DNA of 64,000 bases, taken from Isoetes taiwanensis. Its lineage: Eukaryota; Streptophyta; Lycopodiopsida; Isoetales; Isoetaceae. Positions within the stretch are counted from its first letter, which is position 1. Every line of letters begins with the position of its first letter. Of this stretch, positions 4,644 through 41,649 are shown piece by piece. The notes below the pieces were generated by a model, which searched no databases, was not told the origin of the DNA, and was given only the letters and a program-made list of their open reading frames with translations. Both the position numbers and the translations under genes were made by a program. The DNA is taken from NCBI GenBank assembly GCA_021234155.1, contig JAJEKV010000003.1, forward strand, positions 18,646,386-18,710,385, written 5' to 3'.

Positions 4644-6106
4644 TGTGACGTTCCAGTACGATATACGGTCTCAAGACGTATACCGTACTGCACCGTCATG
4701 CGTACACGCCATTCCAATCGACGTGTACGCCGACATATAGCCAAGCAAGTAGCGCCCTAGGGGGCAACTTGCAAGGATGCGCACACTTATTAATTTGCGC
4801 ACTTTAAACCTTTAACCAATTAAAGGCAGACCAAGGGTCATAGAAACCCTAAACCTAACTTATAGCCTATGTAAGGCAACCAAACCCTAATTCTTCCCTT
4901 TTCGTCCACGAACCTTCCGAGCTCCAGTTCGCGCGCCTCAAGAGTCAAATCCGACTCTCAAGATCTGCCCGTGCGCTCTAGCTCGTCAGATTCCCTTTCC
5001 GACCGCATCCCCAAGCAGAACAACGACATGGACGCATTCGGATCAAGAGGAGTGAACCAGGGATCAGGTATTTAGTCGATTTAATAGCCTAAACCGTATT
5101 CCAGCCATCGAACCAATAGGTTTAGCCTATTAAATTACCCTTAGTAGCCAAGCAGATCCCCAGACTGGCCCTAACTAAAGAACCTAACTCTATGATATAG
5201 ATTAGATCTTATTCTTTAGTTCTATGATGATGTGATGGATGGATGAATTCTGTGGACTCATTGTATTGGGAAGGGGGGTAGAGACTTACAGCTTAGTAGT
5301 TGATGCTCCTAGCTAGCCTCCTTAGCACACTGTAGATTCGGCCTGTGTACAAGAACCACACCTGGTTGTGGGTGAAGGGGCCAGACTGGCTCAGAAGGAG
5401 GTTCGTGTTCTGACTCTTGAACGATCCCTCTGGTGTGTAAGGCCTACCGGGGATCATAGTGGACTAGGTCTAATGGCTTGCCACTGAGTGTGGGCAAGGC
5501 ATGGGCTCGACACCCATGGGGTGATGCGTCACTCTCCAGTGGGTTCAAGTCGAATAAGGGCAGTGGCCCTCTAGTCACCTTGAGTCAGCATGGAGATCTC
5601 TGGAGGGAGTGATCCCTACCTGCCCCATCGGAACTGGGGAGATGCAACCCAGGAATAGCCCCTTTGGCTATGCATCCGGCGGGCTACAGTCAGGTCCCAA
5701 CACTCTTCAACCTACTCTGCAAAGTGTGCACAGGAGGGGCGGATGGAGTGGAACCCTATGCCATGTTCTCATGCCAGCCAAATCCATTGTCATGAATTCT
5801 GTCTGCAATGAACTCTAAAGACCCAAGCCGTCAGTCACCCCCTGGAGTCTGAGCCTTGGGTAGGAACCCATATGTATTGTGCTGATCTTTGTCTATGCAG
5901 ATGTTGATGTACCACCCTTCGAGGTGGATATGTGATGATGTTGTATACTGACATGTATGTTTACGCTTCCGCAGCTAGGTAGGCCCTGAGGGAGACGGGG
6001 TAAAATGGCCCCTTCATTCTTCCCACTGGAACTCATTAGCTGGTATGGGGGATGAACTCCAGTTTGTATACGGTGAGTGCACCGTATACGAGTAGGGGAC
6101 GTCACA
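4644..6106 (+). repeat. 5' LTR of element A
   Basis: 1463 bp, starting TGTGACGT and ending ACGTCACA, so the ends form an 8-bp inverted repeat. Near-copy at 48917-50345, which is shorter through small deletions (for example around 49695 and 49810). It contains an internal inverted repeat AACTAAAGAA / TTCTTTAGTT around 5176-5223. No ORF in it looks real. Confidence 0.96.
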
Positions 6107-6810: not shown

Positions 6811-7459
6811 ATGGCCAGAGGCCATCCTTCATCTAGTGAAGGAACCGAGTCCGAAGAGCACCCCGACAACCCTACTAACCAAGGAGGGGATGAGATGGAG
6901 GTCAAGGAGGACGCACACTCCAATGCGGGGACAGAAGTCCTCGATAATGAGGAAGGAGATGTGATGCAGCAGGTTTTTGAAGAAATGGAGGAGGAAAAGA
7001 GGCGGAAGGAGGAACAAGATCGGGTGGCCGAGGAGCAGGAAGAACAGAGAGAGCCGACACTCGATCCAGCCGAAGAGGAGGAACTAGCGGCGTGGATAAA
7101 GAAGCACGAAGCGGAAGAACGCCGCCGAGAGAGAAAGAGGGAGGAGCAAGAGGCCAAGGAGGCCGAATTCAAGAAAAAGCTCAAGGGCAAAGGCGTGGCG
7201 CAGCCCAAGAGGAAGCTGAAGGAAAATCCCCGCACCAAGGTCGTCATCCAGGAACAGCCCGCAGACAAACCCCCATCCTCCTCGGATGACTCGGAGGATG
7301 AGGATTGTAACCCCCACGATAAAGAGGCAGGTCCTTCGAAGGATCCCGTCAATGAGCAGGCAGTACCTGACCAGAGCAGCCCGAGCAGGCGCAGAAGCCC
7401 CCACCATACTCGACATGGGGTAGAAACAAAGCACCGCGGCCAGCCCGAGAGGCGTATGT
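6811..7459 (+). pseudogene. N-terminal half of element A's histone H3-like gene, without the H3 tail
   Basis: Starts at ATG 6811 (MARGHPSSSEG). Compared with C and B it lacks about 35-45 codons: the first two residues (AR) are kept, then the sequence jumps to the region equal to SSSSEGEPS in B, so the K4/K9 tail is gone. The rest is the charged insert: acidic stretches, a Glu/Lys/Arg-rich probable helix (about 7000-7200), a KRKLK basic patch and an SSDDSEDED acidic cluster. A frameshift just before the end moves the reading frame, and element B interrupts it at 7459. The histone fold half is at 36781-37268. Non-functional as it stands. Confidence 0.88.
7455..7459. other. Target-site duplication of element B (left copy)
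   Basis: TATGT, matched by 36776-36780. Removing B restores the frame order of the H3-like gene of A. Confidence 0.95.
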
Positions 7460-12533: not shown

Positions 12534-12985
12534 TTATTAATAAAATTTTTGGTTATATGGTGACCACCCCACCTATCTACATGGATGCATGGCTAATCTC
12601 CCGGCGTCGGAAGAGGGTGAGTCTTCCATTATGGCCGTGGGGACAGCGCCTATATGCCTATATGCCGCTCATGCCTACACCCTAGTTGCCCAGCGTGGCG
12701 GATAGGTCCTTCCCGTATAGGGGGCGTGAAGGCCAGATTCCTCCTATCAAAGCATATATGGGGTTAGAGGTGCTTTTCCGATCAATGCATTCTTCAATGA
12801 CCTCCTTTCTCTCGAGGTCGTCTACTTCCGTGGGACAGAAGTAGACTTTCCAAGCGGAACCGCGGTCATGCCTACATTGACATTACACCACGTCCTAGAG
12901 ATCACCGTGGTAATCTCATCATCGGCAACAACGCATGCAACCTTAACCTCATAGGTTGCATGCGTAGATTATACTAAACAAGCTA
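12534..12985 (-). other. 3' UTR of element B next to pol
   Basis: Non-coding. It matches the 3' UTRs of C (26367-26860) and A (48076-48500), for example the shared block AGATCACCGTGGTAATCTC (12899-12917, minus of the C/A block). No ORF. Confidence 0.85.
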
Positions 12986-15626: not shown

Positions 15627-17169
15627 TGTGACGTTCAAAGCCACGATTATCACGGTCCCGAACGTATATCGCATCGCCTCACACGCAGCGTACCGCCACT
15701 CGACCGGGCGTGCGCGACGACGGATAGCCAGGTAAGTAGCCCTAGGGGCAACTTGCTAGGTATGTTCACATGTTATTAATGTGCACATATGCACATTAAT
15801 GTGGGCACACTTTTCCATGTGGGCACATTTTGCCACCTAGCCATTAATGGCAAGTGGGCCCTTTCCAATTATCCCACATGCCAAAAAGGGATAATTGGAA
15901 ACCCTAGCCCTAACCCCATGTCTATTTAGGGTAGGGAAACCCTAACTTGCTAGTTTTCGTCCATAGGGTTTTAGAGCTCTGTTTTGGCTGCCCCAGGAGC
16001 CAAAACCGCCTCCCAGACGCTGCCCAAGCGAATCGCACCATCAGTTTTCCTGAATTCGATCAGCTCAGCAGAATGGTTGAACTCAGGTCAGGAGGAGCCA
16101 CCTAGGGATCAGGTATTTGGTCAATTTAATAGCTTAAACCGTCTTCTAGTCATAGAACCAGTAAGTTTAGACTATTAAATTGCCCATAGCAGCTATCTAG
16201 ATCTTTAGATCTCAGACACTAACTAAAGAACCTAACTCTATGATATAAATTAGATCTAGTTCTTTAGTTCTTCTGTGATGTATATGGATGATGTATCTCT
16301 GTGAACTCCTTGTATTGGGAAGGGGGGTAGAGGCCCTGAAGCTGTGTAGTTGATGCTCCTAGCATAGCCTCTCTAACACACTGTAGATTCGGCCTGTGTA
16401 CAAGAACCACACCTTGAGAAGGAGGTTCATGTCCTGACTCTTGAACGATCCCTCTGGTGTGTAAAGCCTACCAGGGATCATTGTGACTAGGTCTAATGGC
16501 TCACCACTGAGTGCGGGTAAGGCATGGACTCGACACGTGAAGTGGTGTACACTTTCCGGTGGGTTCGGTCGAATCACAGGCGGTGGCCCTCTAGTCACCT
16601 TGAGTCGGCATGTAGATCTCTGGGGTGATCCCTTCCCGCCCCATCGGGCTGGGAGGATGAGACCCGGGGAATAGCCCCTTGGCTATGCATCCCGTGGGCT
16701 CTGATCCAGTCCGGCGGCTTTTCAGCCTACTCTGCAAAGTGTACACAGGAGGGGCGGATGGAGTGGTCAACCCTATGCCATGTTCTTATGCCGACCAACT
16801 CCATTGCCATGAATTGCATGCGCAATGAACTCACGGAGACCCAAGCCGTCGGTCATCCCTCGAGCCCCAGAGCCTTGGGTAGGATTCCCCATGTGATGTG
16901 CTGATCATTGTCTATGCAGGTGGTGGTGCACCACCCTTCGAGGTGGATGGAGGATTATGTTGAGTACTGACATGTATGTTTTCGCTTCCGCAGCTAGGTC
17001 GGCCCTGAGGGAGGCGAGGGTAGAATGACACCTTCACTCTTCCCTTTGGGACTCATTCACGGTGTGCGATGATGTGTGGAGGGCCTGTGATCGGTGTGGA
17101 GCTGGTATGGGGAAGAACTCTGTTTGTATCACGGTGAGGGCAGGTATGATGCGAGTAGGGGACGTCACA
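15627..17169 (+). repeat. 5' LTR of element C
   Basis: 1543 bp, similar to 27252-28812 with scattered substitutions and small indels. It contains short direct and inverted runs (CACATATGCACATTAATGTG around 15784). Ends GGGGACGTCACA. Confidence 0.95.
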
Positions 17170-17170
17170 A

Positions 17171-17183
17171 TGGTATCAGAGCA
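17171..17183 (+). other. Primer-binding site of element C (tRNA-iMet)
   Basis: TGGTATCAGAGCA one nt after the LTR; complementary to initiator tRNA-Met. Confidence 0.93.
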
Positions 17184-17838
17184 ATGTTCTTGGAGACCAA
17201 GAGCAAAGCACTGGCCATGTTCCAGTAGTACTGACTTGATAGGATCCTCAAGCCTCGAAAAGTGGGAAAATTTTTCTCATTTTTGTAGTTATGCTAAGCT
17301 AGTAACAATTAAGTTTAATTGGAATTTGATAAGATTAAAAAGAATAAGCCCAAAATTTTCCAAGTGAGGTGGTCTCACATTTCACCGGTCATGAGAACTA
17401 AATTTCAGTTTTGGAGCGAGGCGCAAGCTGTGAGACATCGAGCCAAGACCACCAAAATATGATGAATTTGAGAAAAGTAATGTGGTAAGGCCAGTTCTAA
17501 GGTAGGAATTAATTAGAATAGCACGTTTTAATTACCTAAATAACCTAGAAATGTATGAGATCTCACAGCTCGTGCCTGGTCTAAAAACTAAACTTTAGTT
17601 TTGGAGCGAGGCGCAAGCTGTGAGACCAATAGGTAGAAAAAAAGTCTGAAATAAGTGTAAATTTCAATTAAATAGGTGCTTAGCATGTTAAATAGAGCAA
17701 CTTGAATTTTGATCTAAAACTTCCCAAGCTATAAATAGATGTAGACCCCCCTCATTTCCACGTCCCAGTCCTAGAAATCCGCTCCTCCGCACTTAGGCGA
17801 TCTTTTGGCGCTTTTACCCGATTGACAATCCGTAAAGC
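17184..17838 (+). promoter_or_regulatory. Promoter module 1 of element C, before the H3-type gene
   Basis: Hairpins at 17372-17436 (5' arm decayed) and 17561-17625 (arms TCTCACAGCTCGTGCC and GGCGCAAGCTGTGAGA, inner stem AAAACTAAA / TTTAGTTTT). TATAAATA is at 17730-17737, followed by GACCCCCCTCATTTCCACG and GCTCCTCCGCACTTAGGCGA; the ATG is 108 nt downstream of the TATA box. Module 2 at 19093-19818 has the same order and recognisably related sequence. Confidence 0.78.
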
Positions 17839-19092
17839 ATGGCCCGAACCAAACAGACCGCCAGGAAGTGTCGCCCAGGCGAAACCACCAGCGCCACTGA
17901 GGCTGAGATCATTCGACAGATGCTTCGCGACAGGCTCGCGAAAGGAGGTCGTTCACCTTCGAACGGGGAAGACGTCTCGGAGGAACAAGACACGTCCGAT
18001 CTGATTGACGTCTTCAACCAGCAGGTGGAGCAGGACGAGGCAACATCACCAACCTCCATGGACGAGGAGACAAGGGAGGTATATGAAGAAATAGAGCGGG
18101 AGATCCGGCGGCAGGAAGGAGCAGAAGATCATTCTGATGCAGCCACGGAGATCCTCGAGCAGGAAGAGCAGGCGACAGGTCTGGAGCCAGCGGAGGAAGC
18201 AGATCTCGCGAGATTCATTAGAAAATATGAACACCGGGAGAAAAAGAAGGAAGACAAAAAGAGGAAGAGGGAGGAGGAGGAACACAAGGCGGCAGAAGAG
18301 AAAAAGAAGGCGAAGGGGAAGTTCGTGGTCGGCACAAGGAAGCTGAAGGACGTCCCGCCAAGGAAGAGGCCTAACCCCAAGATCGTCATCAAGGAGCGGC
18401 AAGCCGACGAACCTCCGAACCCCTCCGACGACTCTTCTGATGAGGACGTCAACCCTAATGCTGCAGGTGGAAGCTCTTCTAAACACCCAGGCGACGAACA
18501 GGTAGCACCTGAGCAACCCCAGCAAGATCAAGTACAGAAGCCCCCTGAGTACCCGGCGTGGGATAGGAAGAAACAGCCGCGCCCTGCCCGTGAAGCTTAC
18601 GTCACCGACAGGGTAAAGATATACGAAAGAAAGATGAGGGAGCACGAGGCTTATATGAAGAAATGGGAAGCCTACAGCAAGTACTACGAAGAAAACAGAG
18701 TTGCATTTGTTGAAGGAGGGCGCTCAACGAAGCAACAGACCTTGAAGCCGCCACCACCAAAGCCCAAGGCCCCCAAGCCGCCACCCAAGAAGAAGATTGA
18801 CAGGAAGGAGGTGGAGAGGAGAGCGCTAAGGGAGATTAGGCACTTCCAGCGCAGCTACAGTCTTCTAATTCCCCGTGCCCCCTTTGCTCGGTTAGTGCGA
18901 GAAGTGATGCAGGCCTACAGGACGGACTTTAGAGTCACAGATGAGGCGCTGCTGGCAATGCAAGAGGCGGCTGAGGCAAAGATAGTGCAACATTTTGAAG
19001 ATTCAACAGCTTGCACTGTTCACGCCAAGCGGGTAACCCTCATGCGACAGGACATGAGTCTTGCGACCCGCATAAAGGGAGAACGCCCTTAG
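17839..19092 (+). CDS. Retrotransposon-encoded long histone H3 (tail + charged insert + H3 fold)
   Basis: 417 aa, open from ATG 17839 to TAG 19090-19092. Residues 2-10 are ARTKQTARK, identical to positions 1-9 of mature H3 (K4, R8 and K9 kept); the next residues are CRPGE, so S10 and K14 are absent. Residues about 11-328 are an insert unlike H3: acidic start, a Lys/Glu/Arg-rich probable coiled coil (about 130-160), a basic KRPNPKIVIK patch, an SDDSSDED cluster, an aromatic YERK...YMKKWEAY helix and a Pro/Lys run. Residues 329-417 align gaplessly with H3 A47 to its C-terminus: ALREIRHFQRS, PFARLVREV, QEAAEA, HFEDS, CTVHAKRVT, IKGERP; about 50 of 89 identical by hand count. L1 has H3 rather than CENH3 length. 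Inferred role: nucleosome or cDNA-packaging histone serving the element. It is not a host gene, because it lies between LTR and gag in three elements. Confidence 0.93.
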   Translation: MARTKQTARKCRPGETTSATEAEIIRQMLRDRLAKGGRSPSNGEDVSEEQDTSDLIDVFNQQVEQDEATSPTSMDEETREVYEEIEREIRRQEGAEDHSDAATEILEQEEQATGLEPAEEADLARFIRKYEHREKKKEDKKRKREEEEHKAAEEKKKAKGKFVVGTRKLKDVPPRKRPNPKIVIKERQADEPPNPSDDSSDEDVNPNAAGGSSSKHPGDEQVAPEQPQQDQVQKPPEYPAWDRKKQPRPAREAYVTDRVKIYERKMREHEAYMKKWEAYSKYYEENRVAFVEGGRSTKQQTLKPPPPKPKAPKPPPKKKIDRKEVERRALREIRHFQRSYSLLIPRAPFARLVREVMQAYRTDFRVTDEALLAMQEAAEAKIVQHFEDSTACTVHAKRVTLMRQDMSLATRIKGERP

Positions 19093-19818
19093 AACCTTTT
19101 TTGTAAATAATTAAAATTTTTTTGTAATATAGAGCAATTTTGTGTACTCTAATTGCATGAGCTGGATTAATTAGGGCAAGTTAGTAAGTTTTAGCTTTTA
19201 TTTCAGTAAAATAGGACATTTGCAAACCGAAAAATGTGATGTCTCACAGCTCGCGCCTGGTCGCAAAACTAAATTTTAGTTTTGAAGCGAGGCGCAAGCT
19301 GTGAGACCTCGCCCAAACTTGACCAAAACAGCTCCAAATCGACCAAATAAGGGGTCAATTCTGTCTGATTTGATGAGCCCGTCATCCTTACACCCTTAGT
19401 TTACCCAAATTGGATACCTTTTGATCGGAATGAGATTGATGTCTCACAGCTCGCGCCTGGTCGAAGAACTAAACTTTAGTTTTTAAACGAGGCGCAAGCT
19501 GTGAGACCTCCTACCATTTCTTCACCAGGACTTGTCCAGATCATCCTCAACCCGTTGTATAGCATCTTTTAGGTAATCTAACCTTGTTCAAACATCTCAT
19601 CTAGTCTTCAAATTCCCATTTTGACCTCAGATAGACTAGAATTACCCAACCCTAGGAATTTCCAAGTCATCCAAAAATTAGGGTTTCCCCCTTTCTATAA
19701 ATAGACCCCTCATTTCTCAGATAGCACCCTACAAATCTGCTCCTGCCCTTCTAGCCGATTTCTCAACTCCCCTCGAGGCTCTTGCAACCCGTTTGTTACC
19801 CCTTTCCGCAATTAACCA
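19093..19818 (+). promoter_or_regulatory. Promoter module 2 of element C, before accessory gene 2
   Basis: Hairpins at 19241-19307 and 19441-19507, both with arms TCTCACAGCTCGCGCC and GGCGCAAGCTGTGAGA and an inner AAAACTAAA / TTTAGTTTT-type stem. TATAAATA at 19696-19703 is followed by GACCCCTCATTTC and TCTGCTCCTGCCC. The repeat of hairpin-hairpin-TATA-CTCATTTC-GCTCCT from module 1 implies a duplicated regulatory cassette. Confidence 0.78.
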
Positions 19819-21352
19819 ATGGCAACCTCGATTTTTTGAGATGGTACAAGCCGCGCTCATGCTGCCGAGGCTGACGTCGACCAAATCTCCCATATCTTCA
19901 GGAAGGAGGTAGATGTCCAAGCAACCTTGCACGCAACCCCACCTACAGTGAGAAGTCTTGTTTGAGTTCCAAGCTAGGGTAGAACCGGTAGCTAGTGCAA
20001 CTCCCCCTTGCATAGGCTACTTTGTTCCTAGGCAATCCCCGCAAACAAACATCGGGGTGATATCCCAAACATTGCCAAGTACTGACAAACAAAGCGCACA
20101 AGACACTCCGAGCCAATGGTCCTAAGCTGTCCAATGGGACCAAGTACTTCTCTTTCAACACCGCTTTGGCAATCTTTCTCACCCACCGTCGCGAGAAACA
20201 CCGTGAGGGGAAACCTCCATTCCCCCTTGGACATAGACCCATTAGCCATAGCAAAGAACAAGCGGCTCCTTACGCAAGTATGAGCGGAGCAGGAAGGAAA
20301 AGAAGAGGAGGACTGTAATTTAACGGGGAATCGAGGAGGAGGAAGACTATGTCGATTTCGACCCGTGGAGGAGCGGCGACAAGCGAGCGAGGAGTGGCAA
20401 GACTTCGAGAAGAACGGCAAACTCGTCGAGTCGCTGCCCTTTGGGTTAGGCATTACAAGCCTAGCCCCCATTATTGTTGAAGCGAGGAGTTTCGCTTCTA
20501 AGCGACATCCAAACCTTCAGTCGAGGGGAAAGGAGTACCGACCTGGAAGAATTGCCGCACCAACTCCGGAAGAACGGACTTAGACAACTTCATCGTCAGA
20601 GGAGCATCGACTTCCCCTCTAAGTAAGGGAAGCCGACACTTACGGGGAGAGTCTACCTCCGACATCCAAGCCCTGGCAAACATTATGGATTATGGAGGAC
20701 CAAGCCGCTTAAATCAACTCACCGGCGGAGGAAGAGTTCCTTGCCCTCACAGAGCAGATGGGGATCCGCCACGCAACATCGAACATCCTAACGGCAAGCT
20801 GGAAATTGGCAGCACCTCCCCGAGAGAAGAGGCGAAGCCCCGACCTGGGAGAGCTTCAGAAAGCGGGCCGAGACTACAGGGGACCTCATCACGGTGGAAA
20901 TAGATGACTTTGCGGCGCGGAACCGAGCTGGATACCGAGTGGCCGGGCGGGCCTACTTAGCGATTGGGTCATTGCGGTACTACGCCCTGGCGATGGATGG
21001 AAGAATAGCGGTAATTCACCGCAAATTCTTGAGGCGAGGAAGGAGTATCGATGCTAATTGCGCTCTCGAGGATTTGGCGGCATGCTTGGCGGTTGCCCCT
21101 CAACACCAAAGTATGCCATCACGGTAAAGAGAGCGTAGCACTCGATGTTTTCGACCGCCATACCTTACAAGCGGCAAGCAAGGCTGGCGTGACCGCGGCT
21201 TATACCCCGCAGGGGTAGAAGACTTGGCGAGAGCCTTTGTGTATGGATCTTGACCAACATCCTTAGGAACTTGGGTCATTCAATTGGGAACAGCCCAAGT
21301 GAAAAAGTTCCTAGAGGATAATCCATCCTACGGCAACATCAAGAATAGTTAG
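19819..21352 (+). pseudogene. Accessory gene 2 of element C (frameshifted)
   Basis: Starts at ATG 19819 (MATS-type start shared by B; A has MATAD) and should end near 21352 (NIKNS stop). The frame breaks many times. Recognisable pieces are the LGITSLAP block near 20445-20470, the DGRIAVIHRKF block near 20995-21030 and the LGTWVIQ / VKKFLEDN block near 21265-21330. Function unknown; see the copy in A for the best view of the protein. Confidence 0.75.
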
Positions 21353-21525
21353 CAATCTTGATCAGGAAGTTTTAATTTTGTATTAGCATATTATAAAATA
21401 TGAATATAATTTCTTTTTGCACTATAAATGTTTTGTGGATGTATTTTGTGTCCCCAACTATACCAACAAACATAAATAATGCAAGAGAATAAGTAAAACT
21501 AACCATATAGCCATGAACTACTTGT
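21353..21525 (+). other. Conserved non-coding spacer between accessory gene 2 and gag (element C)
   Basis: About 175 nt, AT-rich, with shared text in A, B and C (AATATAATTTCTTTT, CCCCAACTATACCAACAAA) and ending TGTGTATGCAG, a good 3' splice site sequence. It could be an intron end or a gag leader. Confidence 0.5.
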
Positions 21526-22870
21526 GTATGCAGCTAGAGGCCTAAGCTCGGGGAACGACAATAGAAGGGAACATGTGGAAGAACGAGTCCGCCCAGCCAC
21601 GCAAGCAAGAAACCCTCGTTCGAGGAATTTGGAGCCATCACCCCTAAGAGGAAATATCTCGTGATGAGGGCCGGACCGAACGGATAAAGGCTTTGTCGCC
21701 GCAAAAGTAAGAGCTGGGTTTCCGGTGGGCAACGCTTTCGTTGCCTCAAGCATCGGTTCGAAAAACGGGGAGAGACAAGAAGAGAAGCAAGAGAAGGAGG
21801 TCCCCGGCTTCGAATCCTGGACTCAAGATTGGTCAGACTCCGGGACAGGAGGAAGAGGAAGAGCAGCCCAGGACCGAAACGGATGCAAGGCGAGAAACCG
21901 GCAGATGCAAAGGCAGAGGGACGCCATAGATGGATCGACAAAAGGGACACGAACCTCGACTACGTAAGAAGGTAGATTCCTGACTTTGGGCAATGTATGG
22001 AAGGCCCTGAATCGGAACAGTTCTCGAGGGGGAGAACAGTCGATTAGAAAGCGAGAGGCATGGCTGGGCCGAAATGAGTGAGTGCGGCAATGCTTATGGC
22101 ATGAAGGATAAGGACAAAGGTAGAGTGGCAACAGCCAACTTGAAAGGAGCCGCACGAATTTGGTGGAAAGGTTATGCAAAGGCACATGGCTTAAGCAGGG
22201 ATGCTTGTAAGTTCAGGAAGTTTGCTAAAGCCTTCAAGCGCCATTACGTACCAAGGGAGCACAAGTCCAACATGATGCAGCAGTTCTACAGGTTGCAGCA
22301 AGGCAACAAGTCAGTCGAAAAATATCTGAGAGGAATTCATGAGGTCGAGGTGGCATGCGTGCCAAAGTTAGGTGAAAAGCATGCGGTAGAAAGCTACGTT
22401 GAAGGCCCGAATGAGGAGATCCATAAGCTTGTAAGGGCAATAAACCCCTAGAAACGATGCTCAGAAGCGGAGTCCAAGGCAATAAGCTTGCAAGGAACGG
22501 GACCTCAGAATAGCGGGCAGAGGCAGCAGTAATACCAGGACAAAGGCAAGGCAGCAGGCAGTTTTAGCCCAAGGACAGCCAGCCCAGGACCAGCTAGAGC
22601 CCCGTATAGCGGCAATCAGGGGAAGCGGCGAGAGAAGAAGCGGGGTGTCCTTCAAAGACAAGCAGGAAGGGTCAAACTACTCCAAAGCAGTGCGTTCCTT
22701 TTTGCAGGCCATGCCCAAGGAAAAGAGACAGGAGTGCATAGAAAAGCAGCTTTGCTTCATGTGCTTCCAGCCAAAGCCATAGGGCAATGAAGCGCCATAT
22801 CGTCATGAGTGCAAAAAGCGAGTTGGGAGATTGGGACACCACGACGACGACGGCGGCGAGGAAGCCCGCT
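21526..22870 (+). pseudogene. gag of element C
   Basis: The N-terminal part (21526-22070) is frameshifted, with Arg/Ser-rich and acidic stretches. The retrotransposon gag core is clear at 22074-22451: GAARIWWKGYAKAHGLSRD, FKRHYVPREHKSNMMQQFY. A stop follows near 22451. A zinc-knuckle remnant (CFMCFQPKP, later RHECKK) is at about 22750-22820. It would form the capsid-like particle. Frames are broken, so it is not functional as written. Confidence 0.88.
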
Positions 22871-25800
22871 GACTACATTGTGGTGAGTGTCATATCTTTG
22901 CCATAATAGATACAAAGCAAAGAGAGCCGCGATATAAAGTAATTTCCACGGTAGGGAAGGCCAAGACCAAGTCCTTCATAGTCTTGATAGACTCAGGAAG
23001 TAGCCATAACTTTGCATCCCCCAGAATGGTTCAAATGTTGAAGTTGAAACCACTAAAGTCAAAGCCAAGGCCCGTTGTCTTAGCAAGTGGAGCAATAAGG
23101 CAGATGGCAGGTAAGAGAATCAACCGACATCGACTTGCGGGGATTAAAATCCGGATGGGGCAGAAGTAATGGGCATTGGCAAATACGACTTGATCATAGG
23201 TATGGAGTACCTTGGACCAGCAGGGGCCATTATCGATTGTGGAAAGCGGAAGGTGACCTTCCCAATGCCCGACGGCAAGATCATTGAGATCACAGGTAAA
23301 GAAGTTGTTCCCGTCATGCAGTGTATGTCTTCTAAACAGCTGTTCAAGTGCATCAAGAGTGAGCAGGTGGCATACATCTTCAAGCTTGAGATTAGTGAGC
23401 CGGAATCAGAAGAAAGCAAAGAAGACAAGGTGCTCAGCAAGTTGCCGAAGCAAATAGCTGAGCTGATCACGGAGTTCCATGATCTCTTTCCAGATGAGAT
23501 CAAGCAGCTTCCTCCTTATAGGGGAGTCGAGTGCGAGATAGCACTCGAACCGGGAACAAAGCCGACAAGCAAGGCTCCATACAGAATGACGATGCAGGAG
23601 TTGTCAGAACTAAAGAAGCAATTGCAGGAGCTACTCGACCTAGGATTCATTAGGCCTAGCGTCTCGCCGTTTGGAGCGCCCATTCTTTTTGTCAAGAAGA
23701 AGGATGGATCCTTGAGGATGTGCATAGACTATAGGCAGTTGAATAAGCACACCATTAAGAACAAGTATGCGCTCCCAAGATCAGACGACTTGATGGATCA
23801 GCTTCAAGGAGCAAGGATCTTCTCCAAAATCGACTTAAGGTCAGGTTATCATCAGATCCGGATAAAGGAGGAAGATATCCATAAGACCGCCTTCAGAACG
23901 CGGTATGGGCACTATGAGTTCACGGTAATGCCTTTCGGCTTATCGAATGCCCCCGCGACGTTCATGAGGCTCATGAACGACATCTTCAGGGAGTTTTTAG
24001 ACACCTTTGTGATTGTATTCTTTGACGACATTTTGGTGTATAGCAGATCCCTTGAAGAGCACGTACAACACTTAAGGAGAGTGCTAGAGAAGTTGAAGAG
24101 GCACCAGTTGTACGCCAAGTTGTCGAAGTGCCACTTCGCAACGGAGAAGGTAGAATACCTGGGTCACGTGATCTCAGCAGAAGGCATCTCGACGGACCCC
24201 GCCAAGATTGAAGCAGTGATTCAGTGGCCGGCGCCGAAGAATGTGCACGAGGTCAGAAGTTTTCTCGGGTTAGCAGGGTACTATAGGAAGTTCGTGAAGA
24301 ACTTTGCTAAGATAGCGGCCCCGTTAACAGATTTGACGAGGGCAGAGAAGGTGAAAGATTGGGCAGAGCATTGGCACAAGACAGCCCAAAAGGGGTTTGA
24401 ATTGTTGAAGGAAGCTTTGACGACAGCCCCTGTCTTGACCCTGCCGGACCCGGAGAAAGATAAGCTTGTAGCAACAGATGCGAGTAAGATAGCTACAGGT
24501 GCAGTGCTTATGCAAGAAGAGCGCGTGGTAGCATATGATTCCAGGAAGATGAACGACGCCGAGACGCGCTACCCAACGCACGATCAGGAATTGCTTGCAG
24601 TTGTCAGGGCGTTAAGAATATGGAGGCACTACCTCTTGGGAAGGAAGTTCCAATTGGATACTGACCATCAGAGCCTCCAGTATGTATTCACGCAACCACA
24701 CCTTAATCTGAGGCAGCGGAGGTGGATGGAGTTCCTCGAAGAATATGACTTTGTTATAGTCTACAAGCCGGGGAAGCTCAATGTGGTAGCAGATGCGCTT
24801 TCAAGACATCCCCTGACAACTAGAGTGCATTGCAATGCAATTTCGACGCTCTCCAGCGACTTTGGTAAGAAGATTGAAGAGTCCTTGCCAACGGATGTGG
24901 ATTTCAGGGAAGTATGGGCAAGCCTCTCTAAGGAGGCTAGAACAGATAAAGAGCGGGAGGCCTTCAAGCATTATAAGAAGGAAGGCAACCTGTTATATCA
25001 TAAGAACAAGTTGTGCGTACTCGAATCATCAGGTGTAAGGAAGTTGATCCTCCACGACACGCACAACAGCCCAATAGCTGGCCATGCGGGCTTCATGAAA
25101 ATATATTTCAAAGTGCGCAGCAGCTATTATTGGCCAGGAATGAAGAAGCAAGTAGCTCGCTACATCAAAGAATATCAGCTATGCCAGCAGACGAAGGCGG
25201 AGCAGCTTCGAATTCCAGGGGCATTAGAGCCATTAGCGGTGCCAAATGCTAAGTGGGAGGTGATCAGCATGGATTTCATCACAGGGCTCCCAAGGACGGT
25301 AAGAGGGAAGGATGCCTTGATGGTAGTGGTCGACAAGTTGTCGAAGATGGCACACTTCGTGCCTTGCAAGACCACGAGTCTGACTATGGATACAGCAAAG
25401 CTCTTCACCAAAGAGATCTTCGGGCTTCATGGCATGCCAAGGGAGATTATATCCGACAGGGACCCGAAGTTCATGAGTGCATTTTGGCAAGACCTCTTTG
25501 CGACGATTCAGACCAAGCTATCCATGAGCACGGCGTATCATCCTCAGACGGATGGCCAAACGGAGCGGACCAACAGGATCTTAGAAGACATGCTACGAAA
25601 CTATGTCTGGAATAAGCAAAGTATGTGGGAAGAATTTATTCACTTGGTGGAGTTTGCATACAATAGCACCAAGCAGGAATCATCCCAAATGTCGCCGTTT
25701 ATGATCAATTACGGCTACCAGTGCCTAACTCCAGACACTTGGCACAACCCTGTGTCAAAAGTGGAAGTTTCGCAGCAGATGTTGGCCGATATGCAGCAGC

Positions 25801-26366
25801 TTGTGGAAGAGGTTCGAGGGTATCTGCTAGCAGCAAGAAGTCGACAAAAGAGCATCGCCGACAAGCATCGAACAGTCAGAGAGTTCAAGGTTGGAGATGA
25901 TGTATGGCTCAAGATCAAGGTGAAGCAGGCGAAGCTCAGGATCGGGAATTGCAAGAAGCTTGCTCCAAGGTGGGCTGGACCTTTCAGAATAATTAAGAGA
26001 GTAGGTAATCAATCCTACAAGTTAGATTTGCCAGCACACCTAAAGATTCATAAGGTCTTCCATGTGAGTTTGTTGAAGAAGTACACTCCAAACCCAGACG
26101 AAGTCTTGGACACTCCAACGTTGTTGGAAATGACGGAGGAGCAGCTGGAAATAGTTCCAGAATTGATTCTTGATAAAGCTTTCAAGAAAACAAGGAGGTC
26201 GGAGTTCCTCCAATACTTGGTTAAGTGGAAGCACTTGCCGGTGGAAGACGCGACATGGGTACTCAAGAAAGATTTGGAAAAACAGTACCCACAGTTTATG
26301 GAGCAATGGGACGGCAAGGTCATCTCCGAAGAAATCGGCTCAGGCATGTCGAATTGTGTAGGTTAA
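22871..26366 (+). pseudogene. pol of element C: protease, RT, RNase H, integrase, chromodomain
   Basis: The protease motif [11 protein letters not shown] starts near 22981. One frameshift around 23150 separates it from the 1065-codon run 23169-26366. In that run: RT (residues about 110-300, [12 protein letters not shown], active site FFDDILVYS about 280-290), RNase H (TDAS, DQELLAV, TDHQSL, VADALSR, about 430-545), integrase zinc finger ([10 protein letters not shown] about 630, then YQLCQQ) and core (MDFITG about 700, SDRDPKF about 762, [10 protein letters not shown] about 800), and a C-terminal chromodomain (about 995-1045, [19 protein letters not shown]). The first Cys of the integrase zinc finger is Tyr here (YQLC; CQLC in A), a likely damaging change. 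Otherwise this is the best pol in the window. Confidence 0.95.
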
Positions 26367-27251
26367 TTCTTGTGTAGTTAGATTAATCTACGCATGCCAC
26401 CTATGCTTGGTATGGGTCGCATGTGTTGTTACCGATGATGGGACCACTACGGTGATCTCTAGGGCGTGGTGTAATGCCAATGTAGGCATGACCGCATTTT
26501 TAAACAGGAAAGTGGAAGGTAGATTAGAAAGTCTACTGTTCCACGGAGTAGGCGACCTCGAAGAAAGGAGGTCATTAAGGAATGCAGCGATAGGGAAAAG
26601 CACCTCTAGCCCCATATATGCTTTGATAGGAGGAATCAGGCCCTTCACGCCCCATATCTGGGAAGGACCTATCCTCCTCCTTATTTGGGCAACTAGGGTG
26701 TAGGCATGAGCGGCATATAGGCATATAAGCGCTGTCTCCACGGCCATAATGGAAGATTCACCCTCTTCCTACGCCGGGAGATTAGCCATGCATCCATGTA
26801 GATAGGTGGGGTGGTCACCATATAACCAAAAATTTATTAAATAATTAAAATGGTACTAACGTAGTATCGACCTGCAGGCCAATAGAGCGCTCCGGAGGGC
26901 AAGGAGGTCGAGCTACGAAGACTTGCAACACAAATTTTTGTTGGAATGTGTTGCAAGGAACGAAGAGTACCTCGAACAATAATTATAGATATGAAATGTT
27001 GAAATTTTGTCTAACTTAATGTCATAATAACTGAGATAGCGAATAACTTGTTTAATGATGTTATGAATTGATAAGTATTCCATAGTATGATGACGTGAAA
27101 ATGTTCTAAAAATATTACCTTAGGGTAATCTTGGTAAATGTATAACTATTATATTGTATGCATCACGTTGATTGCAGATTGCAGATTAGGAAGATCCCAA
27201 GGTGGGGAGACCCACGATGCTGCGGACAGCATCATTTCAAGGTGGGGAGAA
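26367..27251 (+). promoter_or_regulatory. 3' UTR of element C with hairpin, doubled PPT
   Basis: About 885 nt with no real ORF. Conserved with A and B: a GAGCGCTC-containing block (26883-26900), a perfect 11-bp hairpin CTTGCAACACA / TGTGTTGCAAG (26922-26957), and ATTACCTTAGGGTAAT (about 27114-27129). It ends in two copies of AAGGTGGGGAGA (27199-27210 and 27239-27251) separated by a GATGCTG / CAGCATC hairpin (27216-27233). The second copy is the PPT next to the LTR. Confidence 0.85.
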
Positions 27252-28812
27252 TGTGACGTTCGGCCACGATTATCACGGTCCCGAGGCATTATCGCATCGC
27301 CCGCCACGCAGCGTACCGCCACTCCGACCGACGTGTACGCCGACGAATAGCCAGGTAAGTAGCCCTAGGGGCAACTTGCTAGGTATGTTCACATGTTATT
27401 AATGTGCACATATGCACATTAATGTGGGCACACTTTTCCATGTGGGCACATTTTGCCACCTAGCCATTAATGGCAAGTGGGCCCTTTCCAATTATCCCAC
27501 ATGCCAAAAAGGGATAATTGGAAACCCTAGCCCTAACCCCATGTCTATTTAGAGTAGGGAAACCCTAACTTGCTAGTTTTCATCCATAGGGTTTTAGAGC
27601 TCTGTTTTGGCTGGCCCAGGAGCCAAAACCGCCTCCCGAGCGACGCCCAAGCTTAATCGCACCATCAGTTTTCCTGAATTCGATCAGCTCAGCAGAATGG
27701 TTGAACTCAGGTCAGGAGGAGCCACCCAAGGATCAGATATTTGGTCAATTTAATAGCTTAAACCGTCTTCTAGTCATAGAACCAGTAAGTTTAGACTATT
27801 AAATTGCCCATAGCAGCTATCTAGATCTTTAGATCTCAGACACTAACTAAAGAACCTAACTCTATGATATAGATTAGATCTAGTTCTTTAGTTCTTCTGT
27901 GATGTATATGGATGATGTATCTCTGTGAACTCCTTGTATTGGGAAGGGGGGTAGAGGCCCTGAAGCTGTGTAGTTGATGCTCCTAGCATAGCCTCTCTAA
28001 CACACTGTAGATTCGGCCTGTGTACAAGAACCACACCTGGTTGTGGGTGAAGGGGCTAGACTGGCTGAGAAGGAGGTTTATGTCCTGACTCTTGAACGAT
28101 CCCTCTGGTGTGTAAAGCCTACCAGGGATCATTGTGACTAGGTCTAATGGCTCATCGCTGAGTGCGGGTAAGGCATGGACTCGACACCCGTGAAGTGGTG
28201 TACACTTTCCAGTGGGTTGGTCGAAAGGCGGTGGCCCTCTAGTCACCTTGAGTCGGCATGTAGATCTCGGAGGGAGTGATCCCTTCCCGCCCCATCGGGC
28301 GGGAGGATGAGACCGGGGAATAGCCCCTTCGGCTATGCATCCGTGGGCTCTGATCAGTCCCGGCGGCTTTTCAGCCTACTCTGCAAAGTGTACACAGGAG
28401 GGGCGGATGGAGTGGTCAACCCTATGCCATGTTCTTATGCCAGCCAACTCCATTGCCATGAATTCTGTCTGCAATGAACTCTGGAGACCCAAGTCGTCAG
28501 TCATCCCCTCGAGTCTGAGCCTTGGGTAGGATTCCCCATGTGATGTGTTGATCATTGTCTATGCAGGTGGTGGTGCACCACCCTTCGAGGTGGATGGAGG
28601 ATTATGTTGAGTACTGACATGTATGTTTTCGCTTCCGCAGCTAGGTCGGCCCTGAGGGAGACAGGGTAGAATGACACCTTCACTCTTCCCACTGGGACTC
28701 ATTACGGGTGCAGTGATGTGTGGAGGGCCCTGTATCAGTGTGGAGCTGGTATGGGGGAAGAACTCCTGTTTGTATACGGTGAGGGCACCGTATGCGAGTA
28801 GGGGACGTCACA
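27252..28812 (+). repeat. 3' LTR of element C
   Basis: 1561 bp, starts TGTGACGTTCGG and ends GGGGACGTCACA; partner of 15627-17169. Confidence 0.95.
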
Positions 28813-32627: not shown

Positions 32628-33351
32628 GAGTTCAATGCGGAAGAGAGTAGCAAATGGTTGCAAGAGCGCCTCAGGGAGTTGGAAAATCGGCTAAGAGAGC
32701 AGGAGCAAACTTGTGGGGTGCTACGCGTAAAATGAGGGACTTATTTATAGAAAAGAGGAAAACCCTAATTTTTGAGGGACATGGAAAATTCTTCGGGTTG
32801 GGTGTTTGTAGTTTGTAATGAGGTCAAAATGGGAATTTGAAGACTAGTTCAAGTGTTAGAGCATGGCTGGATTACTGAAAGATGCTATACAACAGGTTGA
32901 AGATCATTTTGGCAAGCTCCGGTGAAGAAATGGTAGGAGGTCTCACAGCTTGCGCCTCGCTCAAAAACTAAAGTTTAGTTTCTAGTCCAGGCGCGAGCTG
33001 TGAGACATCGGTCCCATTTTGATCAAAACATATCCAATTTAGGTGAACTAAAGGTGTAAGGATGATGGCCTCATCAAATCAGGTAGAATTGACCCCTTAT
33101 TTGGTCAATTTGGAGCTGTTTTGGGCAAGTTTTGGGCAAGGTCTCACAGACTTTAGCCTCGCTCAAAAACTAAAGCTTAGTTTCTTGCCCGGTAGAGCTG
33201 TGAGACATCACGCCTTCGATTTCGGCAAATGTCCTATTTCACTAAAATAAAAACTAAAACCTGCTAACTCATCCTAATTAGTCAAGTTCAGGCAACTAAA
33301 GTACACAAAATTGTTCCATTTTACAAAATTTTCAATTATTTACAAATGGTT
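32628..33351 (-). promoter_or_regulatory. Promoter module 2 of element B
   Basis: Minus strand. Hairpins at 33141-33206 (one arm decayed) and 32940-33006 (arms GTCTCACAGCTTGCGCC and GGCGCGAGCTGTGAGAC read on plus). TATAAATA on minus at 32742-32749, then the ATG at 32627. Confidence 0.75.
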
Positions 33352-34614
33352 CTAAGGGCGTTCTCCCTTAATGCGTCTAGCAAGATACATGTCTTGCCTC
33401 ATAAGGGTTACTCATTTGGCATGGACAGTGCAAGATGTTGAGTCTTCAAAATGTTGTACTATAAACTGCTCAGCCGCTTCTTGCAGTGCCAGCAGCATTT
33501 CATCTGTGACCCTAAAGTCAGTCCTGAAATCCTGCATTACCTCTCTAACTAGCCGAGCAAAGGGGGCACGGGGAATCAGGAAGCCGTAGCTGCGCTGGAA
33601 GTGCCGAATCTCCCGTAGTGCTCTTTGCTCGAGCTGCTTCTTAGTGAGCTTCTTCTGGGAAGGCTTTTTCGGGACCTTGGGCTTGGGTGGTGGGGGTCGT
33701 AGGGTCTGCTGCTTTGTGGGGTGACCCCCTTCGATGGTCTTGACCCTGTTCTCCTGATAGTAGGAGTTGTATGCCTCCCACTCCTTCATATAGGCCTCGT
33801 GGTCCTGCATCTTTCGCTCGTAGACTTTGATGGGGTTGGTGACGTAAGACTCTCGGGCAGGCCGGGGTTGCTTCTTCCTGTCCCATTTCGGGTAAGGAGG
33901 GGGCTTCTTCACTGTGTCCTGCTGCTCCTCCTCGGGTGCTATCTGCTCGGTCACCACCTGCTCTACAGTCGGGGGTTTGGAGGAGCCTGCTCCCTCAGTG
34001 TTGGGATTATGATCTCCGTCAGAATCGTCCGAGGTCGCCGGGGGCTGATCAGGTGGTCGTTCGGCTATCACTATCTTAGGATTGGGCGTTTTCTTTAGCT
34101 TCCTTTTGGGCTGCTCCACGGCTTTGCCCTTCTTCTTCTTCAGTTCCTCGGCCGCTTTTGCCTCCTCCTCTTCTCTCTTCCTCTTCTTTTGTTCCCTTTT
34201 TCTTTCTCGGCGTTCATATTTCCTGATGAAAGCAGCGAGGTCTGCTTCCTCTGCCGGCTCGAGCCTCGGCTCGCTCTGCTCTTGCTGCTCCTCCGCTTCT
34301 TTTTCTCGAATCCAGGCCTCGACTTGTTCTTCAATGGTCGGCTCTGGCGTCGGCATCCTCTGTTCTTCTCGGGCCTTGGTTCTCTTTTCCCTCTGCGCTC
34401 CCTCCTCCTCTTCCTCAATCACTTCCGTCCCGGCCTCTGAATGTACTTCCTCTTCTTGATTTTGCTCGTTCGAAGGTTCTCCCTCACTCGAAGAAGATTG
34501 AGCGTTAGGGTTAAGGAGGCGCTCTTGGAGCATGCGCCGAATCGTACCGGCATCGACGGCGCTGGTCGCTTCGCCTGGGCGGGCTTTCCTCGCAGTCTGC
34601 TTGGTTCGTGCCAT
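33352..34614 (-). pseudogene. Histone H3-type gene of element B, one premature stop
   Basis: Minus strand, ATG at 34614, natural stop at 33354-33352 (420 codons). It opens with MARTKQTARKARPGEATSA: H3 residues 1-9 identical, S10 replaced by Ala. A charged insert follows (EEEEGAQREK, KKRKREEEEAKAAEE, KKTPNPKIVIAERP, PPPYPKWDRKKQPRPARESY). The H3 fold spans the last 89 codons (RALREIRHFQRSYGFLIP, LVREVMQDFRTDFRV, LQEAAEQFIVQHFEDS, LARRIKGERP). The only defect is TGA where C has CGG and A has CGA in HAKR, consistent with a CGA to TGA (CpG) transition, cutting off the last 20 residues. It is closer to H3 than C at QDF and LARRI. Confidence 0.92.
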
Positions 34615-35257
34615 GTTTGACGGGTCGTCAATCGGATCTCGGGCGCCAAAGATCGCCTTAGAGAGCGAGAGCTGGTTTCTAAGGCGGGAACATTCAAATG
34701 AGGGGGGTCTACTTCTATTTATAGCTTGGGAAATTTTAGGTCAAAATTCAAGTTGCTCTATTTAGCCTGCTAAGGTACCTATTTAATTAAAACTTACACT
34801 TATTTCAGACTTTTTCTACTTATTGATCTCACAGGTCGCGCCTCGCTCAAAAACTAAAGTTTAGTTTTTAGACCAGGCGCGAGCTGTGAGATTTCACATA
34901 TCTTTAAGTCATTTAAGTAATTAAAACATGCTATTCTAATTAATTCCTATCTTAGAATTAGCCTTACCACCTTAGTTTTCTCAAATTTGTCATGTTTGAG
35001 TGACCTTGGCTCGATGTCTCACAGCTTGCGCCTCGCTCAAAAACTAAAGTTTAGTTCTTTGCCCAGGCGCGAGCTGTGAGACCACCTTACTTGGCAAATT
35101 TTTGGCTCATTCTTTTTATTCTTATTAAGTTCCAATTCACTTAACTGTTACTAGCTTAGCATAACTACCAAAAATGAGAAAAATTTTCCCACTTTTTGAG
35201 GCTTGAAGATCCTATTAAGTTAGTACTACTGGGAGTATGGTCAGTGCTTTGCTCTTG
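34615..35257 (-). promoter_or_regulatory. Promoter module 1 of element B
   Basis: Minus strand. Hairpins at 35016-35082 and 34826-34892 (outer stem CTCACAG.. / ..CTGTGAG, inner AAAACTAAA / TTTAGTTTT). TATAAATA on minus at 34716-34723, with the ATG 102 nt beyond. Same layout as the other modules. Confidence 0.77.
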
Positions 35258-35285: not shown

Positions 35286-36775
35286 TGTGACGTCCCCTAC
35301 TCATATACGATGCCCGCACCGTATACAAACAGGAGTTCATCCCCCGCACCAGCTATACAGGGCCCTCCACATATCACTGTGTCCGCCTAGAGTCCACAGT
35401 GGGAAGAGTGAAGGGGTCATTTTACCCCGTCTTCCTCAGGGCCTACCTAGCTGCGGAAGCGTAAATATACACGTCAGTAACATAACATCATATATCCACC
35501 TCGAAGGGTGGCACATCAATACCTGCATAGACAAAGATCAGCACAATACAAGGGAAGTTCCTACCCAAGGCTCAGACTCCAGGGAAGGACTGACTAGCTT
35601 GGGTCTCCAGAGTTCAGTGCAGACAGAATCATGACAGTGGATTGGGCTGGCATAAGAACATGGCTTAGGGTTGTCCACTCCATCCGCCCCTCCTGTGCAC
35701 ACTTTGCAGAGTAGGTTGAAAAGTGTTGGGACTGGATCAGTAGCCCAGGGTGCATAGCCAAAGGGGCTATTCTGGGTTACATCTCCCGTCCCGATGGGGC
35801 AGGTAGGGATCACTCCCTCCATGGAGATCTACATGCTGACCCAAGGTGACTAGAGGGCCTTGCCCTTATTCGACTTAACCCTTTGGAAGGTGAACTCCAC
35901 CCCACGGGTGTCGAGCCCATGCCTTACCCACACTCGGTGGCAAGCCATTAGACCTAGTCACTCGATCCCGGTGAGGCCTTACACACGGAGGGATCGGTCA
36001 AGGGTCGAGAACACGAACCTCATTCTAAGCGATCGGCCCCTTCACCCACAACCGGTGGGGTTCTTGTGCACAGGCGAATTCTAGTAATGCACTAAGAGGG
36101 ACTAGCTAGGAGCATCATCTACTAAGCTTTAAGTCTCTACCCACCCTTCCCAATACAATGAGTCCCAGAATACAACCATCCATCATATGATCATAAATAA
36201 TAAGAACTAATCTAATACATAGAGTCAATTCTTTAGTTAGAGTCAATCTCGTGGAGTGCGTTGGGCTACTAAGGGCGATTTAATAGGCTAAACCTACTAG
36301 TTCGAAGGCTGGAATGAGGTTTAAGCTATTCAATCGACCAAATACCTGATCCCTCGGTTCCTCCTCTTGATCGAAAGGCGTCCACGTCTACATTTACGCC
36401 TCGGGATGCGGTCGGAAGGATGATCTGACAAGCTGGGGCGTGCTGGCAGATCGTGGAAGTTGGAATTGACTCCTCAGGCACGCGAATCGGAGCTCAGAAG
36501 GTCTGTGGGCAAAAAAGGGAATGTTAGGGTTTGGTGCCTTATGTAGGCTATCGGTTAGGTTTAGGGTTCCCATGACCCTTTGTCTACCTTTAAGGGTTTA
36601 AAGGTCTAAAGGTGCGCCGCATTGCTAAGTAATGCGCACCATTGCAAGTTGCCCCTAGGGCGCCCTTGCTTGAGATTACGTCCGGGCGCATTGGGCCGCC
36701 GACCGACGGGCGGTACGCTGGATCACAAGACGGTATCGCCCCAGAGACCGTGATATCGATCGAACGAACGTCACA
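35286..36775 (-). repeat. 5' LTR of element B
   Basis: 1490 bp, partner of 7460-8969 and very similar to it apart from small deletions; ends GTCACA before TSD TATGT. Confidence 0.95.
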
Positions 36776-36780
36776 TATGT

Positions 36781-37268
36781 GATCGACCCCATCAAAGTTT
36801 ACGAGAGGAAGATGAGGGAGCACAACGCATATATGAAGAAGTGGGAGGATTATAACTCCTATTACCAGTAAAACAGGGTAAGAACCATTGAAGGGGGACA
36901 TCCGACGAAGAAGCAGACCCTCAGGCCACCACCCGAGAAGCCCAAGCCTCCTAGGCGACCAGCAAAAAGAAGAGCCAACAAAAAGGAGAGCGAGAGGAAA
37001 GCACTACGGGAAATCAGGCATTTTCAACGTAGCTTCGGTTTCTTAATCCCCCGTGCACCGTTCGCCCGACTGGTCCGAGAAGTTATTCAAGTACAACACG
37101 GAAATGAGGGTGACGGGCGAGATGTTGCTGGCCCTGCAAGAGGCAACATAGCAAAAACTGGTGCAGCATTTTGAAGATTCGACAGCCTGCACAGTACATG
37201 CTAAGCGAGTCACGCTAATGAAGCAAGACATGCATCTCGCCAGTTATATTAAGGGAGAACGCCCGTAA
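36781..37268 (+). pseudogene. C-terminal half of element A's histone H3-like gene
   Basis: Continues 6811-7459 beyond element B. It reads IDPIKVYERKMREHNAYMKK, an in-frame TAA near 36870, GGHPTKKQTLRPP, then the H3 fold: KALREIRHFQRSFGFLIPR, APFARLVREVIQ. A frameshift lies near 37090, then MRVTGEMLLALQEAT, an in-frame TAG near 37150, QHFEDSTACTVHAKRVTLMK, and IKGERP with stop TAA at 37266-37268. The fold part matches B and C closely despite the defects. Confidence 0.9.
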
Positions 37269-41530: not shown

Positions 41531-41649
41531 TAAATAGACCCCCATTTCCCACTTGGCACCCTACAAGTCTGCTCTTGACATGCTAGGTGATCTTTCAGCT
41601 CCCTGAGGCGCTCCTGCATCTGTTTGTTAGTCCCATCTTCCCTAGATCC
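41531..41649 (+). promoter_or_regulatory. Rest of promoter module 2 of element A
   Basis: TAAATAGACCCCCATTTCC, then a leader matching 19700-19818 in C (CACCCTACAAGTCTGCTC), up to the ATG at 41650. Confidence 0.7.

Follow-up and report, generated by a model that had tools for sequence, protein, structure and literature searches.

The 64,000-nucleotide stretch of Isoetes taiwanensis DNA analysed here (hereafter the window) contains, at 17839..19092 on the + strand, an intact gene whose 417-amino acid product resembles histone H3. The gene, delimited from a list of open reading frames together with Pfam, phmmer and an alignment to H3, opens with MARTKQTARK, and its product divides into a tail (ARTKQTARK, aa 2-10), a charged, proline-rich linker of about 318 residues (aa 11-328) and an H3 core (aa 329-417), the last of which is encoded by 89 codons at 18823..19089 (+) that correspond to H3 residues 47-135 in the phmmer and H3 alignments. 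The original prediction, made from the letters of the sequence, had called the gene a full-length-plus histone H3 that begins with mature H3 residues 1-9, shares about 50 hand-counted identities with H3 over its last 89 residues without a gap and includes the motifs LVRE, HAKRVT and GER. Both the start and the three core motifs are present as described, and alignment of the final 89 residues with the A47-135 stretch of plant H3 gives 51/89 identities (57%), gapless, a count that copies A and B of the gene (see below) share when compared with the plant H3 rows P0005 and P0012. The prediction would have fallen had the C-terminal 89 residues shown no H3 hit; Pfam instead returned the Histone family (PF00125) at aa 298-413 (E=7.6e-28; 97.7 bits against a cut-off of 26.4), and in a phmmer search of PDB sequences the best match had E=5.3e-27 and the best 60 of the 179 sequences at E<=10 were all H3s. 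By sequence, the protein thus belongs to the H3 family from the alpha-N helix to the C-terminus, as the Pfam match, the PDB H3 chains and the gapless 51/89 identity indicate; the family assignment in the phrase 'full-length-plus histone H3' stands, and its claim to full length does not, since a clear likeness to H3 is confined to residues 1-9 of the tail and to the globular core.

Three nested elements of one family carry the gene

Comparison of the window with itself, together with junction sequences, resolved three nested elements of a single family, with C outermost, A within C and B within A. The H3-like gene had been treated as a single feature, but all three elements carry one; its predicted placement between LTR and gag was found in B and is the same in 3/3 family members within the window.

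The intact gene belongs to element B, a 13.2 kb Ty3/gypsy chromodomain element (15627..28812, +) that inserted into the pol of A and is flanked by the target site duplication (TSD) ATGCA at 15622-15626 and 28813-28817. Its 5' LTR (15627..17169, +; TGTGACGT...ACGTCACA) and 3' LTR (27252..28812, +) were placed, like the element itself, by self-comparison and junctions. The 5' LTR is followed in all three elements by the primer-binding site TGGTATCAGAGC, located in B at 17171..17182 (+) from the sequence and junctions, which we take to be of the initiator-Met tRNA type. The LTR ends TGTGACGT/ACGTCACA likewise recur in all three, with one base altered in the end of C's 3' LTR and one in the start of A's 3' LTR, and each element has a 5-bp TSD (ATGCA for B, TATGT for A and ACTTC for C); TG..CA LTR ends, a short TSD and a tRNA primer site identify these elements as LTR retrotransposons. 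Further downstream, B has a frameshifted gag (Retrotrans_gag; 22053..22779, +; Pfam and alignment) and an open pol of 1065 aa (23169..26366, +; open reading frame list and Pfam) that encodes RT, RNase H, integrase and a chromodomain (aa 996-1048). The Pfam families recovered (RVT_1, RT_RNaseH, Integrase_H2C2, rve, Chromo and Retrotrans_gag) stand in the gag/pol order of chromoviruses, with the rve match in B slightly below its cut-off (31.4 vs 32.6 bits), and these domains together with the TSD-flanked LTRs bear out the assignment of the gene to a Ty3/gypsy LTR element.

Element A lies on the - strand and inserted into the H3-like gene of C. Self-comparison and junctions place its 5' LTR at 35286..36775 (-) and its 3' LTR at 7460-8969 (-), flanked by TATGT (+ strand) at 7455-7459 and 36776-36780. 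Its H3-like gene (33352..34614, -; translation and alignment) is in one frame with one internal stop in the core, at codon 401. Element C (4644-50345, +; TSD ACTTC), whose 5' LTR (4644..6106, +) and 3' LTR (48917-50345, +) were delimited in the same manner, has an H3-like gene that was split by the insertion of A and was traced by translation and alignment. The 5' part (6811..7459, +) has a deletion after MAR that removes ARTKQTARK, and one frameshift; the 3' part (36781..37268, +), which includes the H3 core, has two stops, one in the linker and one in the core, and one frameshift. Chance or artefact as the origin of the H3 likeness is excluded by the strength of the homology and its repetition in copies A and C, because copy A repeats both MARTKQTARK and the core with synonymous changes in the tail.

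A second accessory ORF, ORF2, lies between the H3-like gene and gag at 41587-43106 (C), 32690-31167 (A) and 19758-21300 (B). Its first part is best preserved between C and A, whereas the B region (19758..21300, +; alignment) has decayed, with stops and frameshifts; ORF2 pieces compared with Pfam gave no family above the cut-off. Other features of the window include a segment of element A (9343-12522) that is not common to B or C in the self-comparison and is probably a further insertion, three LINE-like features labelled by reading (an 871-aa ORF within element C at 38204-40819, another ORF at 55523-57190, and pieces on the - strand at 50821-53433), as well as a weak pol relative (23-37% identity) at 24-2155 on the window's left edge, which represents a different Ty3-type element. 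LTR dating of the nested elements was discarded because the divergence conflicts with the nesting order: K2P between LTRs is 0.018 for the outer element C, 0.093 for A inside C and 0.064 for B inside A, and LTR divergence of A and of B is patchy.

TATA boxes, hairpins and a possible 3' signal surround the gene

The gene had been predicted to have its own TATA box, and CTATAAATA is indeed found about 100 bp before the ATG in B (17729..17737, +) and before the H3-like gene in 3/3 elements, at 6692 (C), 17729 (B) and 34724 (A); the window has 8 occurrences of this 9-mer where 0.54 would be expected. A second TATA box precedes the ORF2 region of B (19695..19703, +), with CTATAAATA before ORF2 in both A and B and CTATAAATT there in C. 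Past the stop codon, all three elements have a TTTGTAAAT stretch that resembles plant polyadenylation signals.

In the window, the hairpin pattern TCTCACA, 40-60 nt, TGTGAGA is matched by exactly 12 sequences, each 63-65 nt long; every element has four of them, one pair upstream and the other downstream of its H3-like gene. In B, the upstream pair lies at 17373..17435 (+; partly degraded) and 17561..17625 (+) and the downstream pair at 19242..19306 and 19442..19506 (both +); the same search places hairpins 1 and 2 of C at 6313-6377 and 6527-6591 (+), hairpins 3 and 4 of C at 37414-37478 and 37613-37677 (+), and the four of A, spanning 32941..35081, at 32941-33005, 33142-33205, 34827-34891 and 35017-35081 (-). 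Across the 12 hairpins, 89.6% of cells are paired, whereas shuffling gives 83.0% and sliding no more than 46.7%, and 20 cells are changed on both sides against 8.4 in shuffles (0/500 as high). Counted as pairs with two-sided change the number is six, a value reached by 214/500 shuffles, and most of the two-sided changes are one shared difference between C and A/B, so that few events are counted. An Rfam scan of 15000-36800 gave no family at the gathering threshold. The hairpins may act as DNA palindromes or as RNA hairpins.

Relatives of the protein and of the element

Using the full-length protein as query, 2408 of 8000 scored sequences matched at E<=0.001, H3s dominating the result; the top match, P0001, is a multi-H3 fusion and ten other matches inspected (P0121 apart) are fused or doubled H3s. 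For the N-terminal 300 aa, 2511 candidates had words in common with the query, and none of them matched at E<=0.001. IMG/VR scans with the protein, with pol and with the A4 alignment returned no relative, and neither did prokaryote genome contigs. For pol, the nearest of the best 120 of 8000 scored sequences is P0121, at 83% identity, and the others of these 120 are 41-59% identical and include Closterium, pine-labelled (PITA) and flowering-plant entries. P0121 sits on a 4999-nt contig, which is too short to reveal any H3-like gene, and its Gag matches Retrotrans_gag (E=9e-16) and, weakly, zf-CCHC_3 (E=2.7).

AlphaFold2 modelling gave mean pLDDT values of 56.1 for the whole protein and 55.8 for its core, and both models are too poor to count for the fold. 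Foldseek with the core model gave 32 matches, 23 of them at E<=0.001, to nucleosome-complex entries of 48-56% identity, but TM-scores by query length were at most 0.48, so this result adds little.

The core is conserved in three copies and the tail in two

The original prediction had named dN/dS across copies as a check, and this could be taken within the window from copies A and B, the third copy, C, being broken. Over the 89 codons of the core, A and B differ with ps 0.457 and pn 0.081, giving a Ka/Ks of 0.12 (bootstrap 0.044-0.255; 999/1000 replicates usable). The first 15 codons behave similarly (ps 0.545, pn 0.059), and the nine ARTKQTARK codons have 5 synonymous and 0 amino acid changes. 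Between these regions, ps and pn are 0.787 and 0.299 at aa 16-240 and 0.838 and 0.159 at aa 240-317, and a ratio could be formed in 170/1000 and 140/1000 replicates, respectively, because synonymous sites are saturated; the core of B compared with that of C is likewise saturated at synonymous sites (ps 0.810, pn 0.159). For reference, the same counting gives Ka/Ks values for pol of 0.059 when B is set against C and 0.144 when B is set against part of A, and values of 0.16-0.33 in four comparisons for ORF2. Judged by these counts from two copies, the H3-like gene has been under purifying selection between A and B. Sequence comparison further indicates conservation of the core in three copies and of the tail in two, the latter being conservation between A and B because copy C is without the tail and has 2 stops and 2 frameshifts.

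The condition of the gene in A differs from that of its surroundings. It runs in a single frame from ATG to final stop, with one stop inside, though the gag-pol of A is wrecked: the 15626-12531 part of A aligned to C has 38 indels in 3069 nt, of which 34 break the frame (29 within pol and 5 beyond it), and the 30602-28818 part has 26 in 1738 nt, 23 of them frame-breaking. Very many of the indels in A's gag and pol (28818-30602, 12531-15626) are 1-2 nt long. The contrast between A's H3-like gene (0/1257 nt) and its 15626-12531 part (34/3069 nt) is significant (Fisher, p=1.1e-5). In B, the gag region has 14 indels in 1723 nt, 12 of them frame-breaking, and pol has 0 in 2646 nt. When the H3-like genes carried by A and B are aligned as nucleotides, 10 indels separate them, 5 in multiples of three and 5 not, and both frames are open. 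A clean gene beside a wrecked gag-pol could reflect decay under mobilisation in trans, selection, a recombinant of a good 5' half and a dead 3' half, or a local assembly error; the contrast comes from one element, in which selection and recombination or assembly error look alike.

The protein is a divergent H3

The product is not a canonical H3 (H3.1/H3.3), given a core identity of 57% and a tail in which only residues 1-9 are clearly kept; canonical H3 has a near-invariant core and a tail that includes S10, K14, K18, K23, K27 and K36. In place of Ser10, B has Cys and A has Ala; Y41, R42 and T45, which precede the core and which we take to be DNA entry and exit residues, are lost in the phmmer alignment. 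Within the core, there are substitutions to P at 63 and V at 84, and the residues at the chaperone site (E87, L89, L90) match neither H3.1 nor H3.3. Residues that would matter in a nucleosome have fared better than the rest: of 20 positions that we take, from a background list rather than a computed one, to form the H3-H3' bundle or the central DNA contacts, 17 have the H3 residue in B, compared with 51/89 overall (hypergeometric 0.004), including 9/9 in the bundle.

Elements and viruses that carry histone genes

Gene-carrying LTR elements are known, as are histone-carrying transposons, and we did not find both combined in the open-licence literature searched. The original prediction had stated that no LTR element with a histone gene had been described; for LTR elements this stands, in that none was found in the titles and abstract openings of open-licence literature, an absence that is not proof, the word 'histone' is absent from the text of a review of gene capture by plant transposable elements (PMC13317346), and the part of PMC12477816 covered has nothing on a histone gene in LTR elements. 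Other transposable elements with H3-like genes have been published. The hAT DNA transposons of Pyrenophora tritici-repentis carry H3-like genes for which ESTs exist (PMC3538342), and those of Pseudocercospora and relatives carry H3-like genes in copies inactivated by RIP (PMC6710886). The fungal elements resemble those studied here in that an H3-like gene sits between the termini of a transposable element and is multiplied with it, but they are DNA transposons with terminal inverted repeats rather than LTR retrotransposons, and the Isoetes family is set apart from them by a gene whose copies show purifying selection and by the 318-aa linker that parts tail from core.

Element B resembles plant chromoviruses in its RT, RNase H and integrase with a C-terminal chromodomain, which, judged by eye, is without the first and third aromatic cage residues, like the plant group II chromodomains described in PMC3350952. 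Unlike plant chromoviruses, B adds the H3-like gene, ORF2 and four hairpins between LTR and gag; PMC2864245 mentions that some chromoviruses have an extra ORF whose function is unknown. Among viruses, PMC9145170 describes single H3s of DNA viruses (xenomavirus, DSLPV1 and others) that are 73-87% identical to the H3 of a possible host; as here, the parasite has a gene for a single H3-like histone, in some cases with a lengthened tail, and host H4 is presumably the partner, but the Isoetes protein comes from a retroelement, is 57% identical to plant H3 and has about 318 aa between tail start and core. The same source describes the bracovirus histone CvBV-H4, which is parasite-borne, has a longer N-terminus and enters host nucleosomes, and which differs in being an H4 from a polydnavirus of wasps.

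What the element may do with an H3-like protein

Plants silence retrotransposons largely via histone H3 marks, above all H3K9 methylation. The original prediction had supposed that the protein might enter nucleosomes, package cDNA or compete with host H3, and each of these would be a possible role. The explanation we propose, with confidence that is evenly balanced, is that a chromodomain Ty3/gypsy lineage captured an H3-family gene and kept it as a unit, separate and between 5' LTR and gag, and that its product acts in chromatin as an element-made H3 variant. Removal of Met1 would expose the true H3 N-terminus, ARTKQTARK, and the core would pair with host H4, so that the protein could join chromatin, most plausibly on or near element DNA. 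The element would in this way gain nucleosomes of its own, in which Ala or Cys at position 10 could not be phosphorylated as Ser10 is, and from which most of the other sites of tail modification, together with Y41, R42 and T45, are absent. The most likely benefit would be escape from, or use of, H3K9-based silencing. This reading is favoured by the homology of the core, the selection between A and B, the 17/20 contact positions, the frame of A and the presence of CTATAAATA in 3/3 elements, and is weakened by the poor AlphaFold2 models, the broken copy C, the 5/10 non-triplet indels, the mismatch at the chaperone site and the possible recombinant or assembly error in A.

An alternative that we consider unlikely is that the protein builds no nucleosomes and is a histone-mimic decoy, in which ARTKQTARK occupies host H3K4/H3K9 readers and writers and thereby counteracts silencing, a role comparable to that of VANC, the anti-silencing factor of VANDAL transposons. 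The exact H3 residues 1-9 in A and B with synonymous changes only, the loss of Ser10 in both copies and the long charged linker that parts tail from core are all consistent with a decoy. Against it, the core, which a decoy does not need, changes little (pn 0.081 vs 0.299 for aa 16-240, although core ps is lower too, at 0.457 vs 0.787), and copy C retains a recognisable core and has lost the tail.

A second alternative, which we think somewhat less likely still, is that the gene derives from a plant CENH3 and encodes a centromere-type histone that helps the element to reach or hold centromeric chromatin. The comparison was made with four plant CENH3 sequences, used as provisional references in place of database entries, and four plant H3s. 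A PDB search with the provisional Arabidopsis CENH3 returned no plant CENH3 among the best 60 of 176 matches. At 18 sites that separate these CENH3s from the four agreeing H3s, the element is CENH3-like at 6, H3-like at 3 (at one of which, site 77, the H3 match comes from copy A alone) and neither at 9. The core is 53/89 (A) and 55/89 (B) identical to the provisional rice CENH3, compared with 51/89 to plant H3, and shares HFQ, LIPxAPF, TxE, LLALQEAAE and TLMR-type residues with the provisional CENH3s. Long N-terminal extensions such as this protein's are known in cenH3s, according to PMC9145170. In an unrooted plants-only tree, the H3 clade excludes the element (98/95), and when CENP-A and Cse4 are added the element stands beside the provisional plant CENH3s (93/93; 92/92 in a smaller set). 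Several observations point the other way. Loop 1 has the length found in H3, without the extra residue of the provisional plant CENH3s; the GER near the C-terminus of the core is H3-like, and the exact H3 tail start is a further difference from plant CENH3; identity to the provisional Arabidopsis CENH3 is only 47-50/89; and alignment scores are higher for H3 (250-255) than for the provisional rice CENH3 (225-240). The CENH3 clade also excludes the element in the unrooted tree (83/85), and an AU test on the set with CENP-A and Cse4 does not reject a grouping of element and H3 (p 0.208). The element's branch is long. We describe the protein as a divergent H3 variant with a CENH3 leaning that is unsettled because the CENH3 references were provisional.

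We hold it improbable that the basic core and linker serve to coat element nucleic acid, cDNA or RNA, in particles or pre-integration complexes. A histone-type protein from a cDNA-making element that keeps most of the central DNA-contact residues would suit such packaging, but the Gag of the nearest relative, P0121, is already equipped with a capsid domain and weakly matches a zinc knuckle, and a TATA box of the gene's own speaks for its being expressed independently of gag. That the gene is passive cargo, a captured host gene without function, is barely credible given the selection between A and B (Ka/Ks well below 1), the gene's presence in three elements and the frame that A keeps where its gag-pol is wrecked, even though copy C is broken and gene capture by plant LTR elements is well documented (PMC13317346).

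Returning to the element-made H3 variant, a more elaborate version, in which we place little confidence, would have element-made nucleosomes contain a CENH3-derived H3 variant with an H3K4/K9 tail and no Ser10, marking a privileged domain, either centromere-like or unsilenced, with the hairpins as a regulatory or packaging signal. More generally, an H3-like gene that is borne by an element and, by the comparison of its copies, selected suggests that a genomic parasite employs a chromatin protein which it encodes itself. By encoding and maintaining an H3-family protein, an element would be the parasite's direct counterpart to H3-based silencing, and selfish DNA would have a means of acting on chromatin that is new. 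Should the CENH3 leaning prove true, the finding would also bear on how retrotransposons and centromeric chromatin shape each other.
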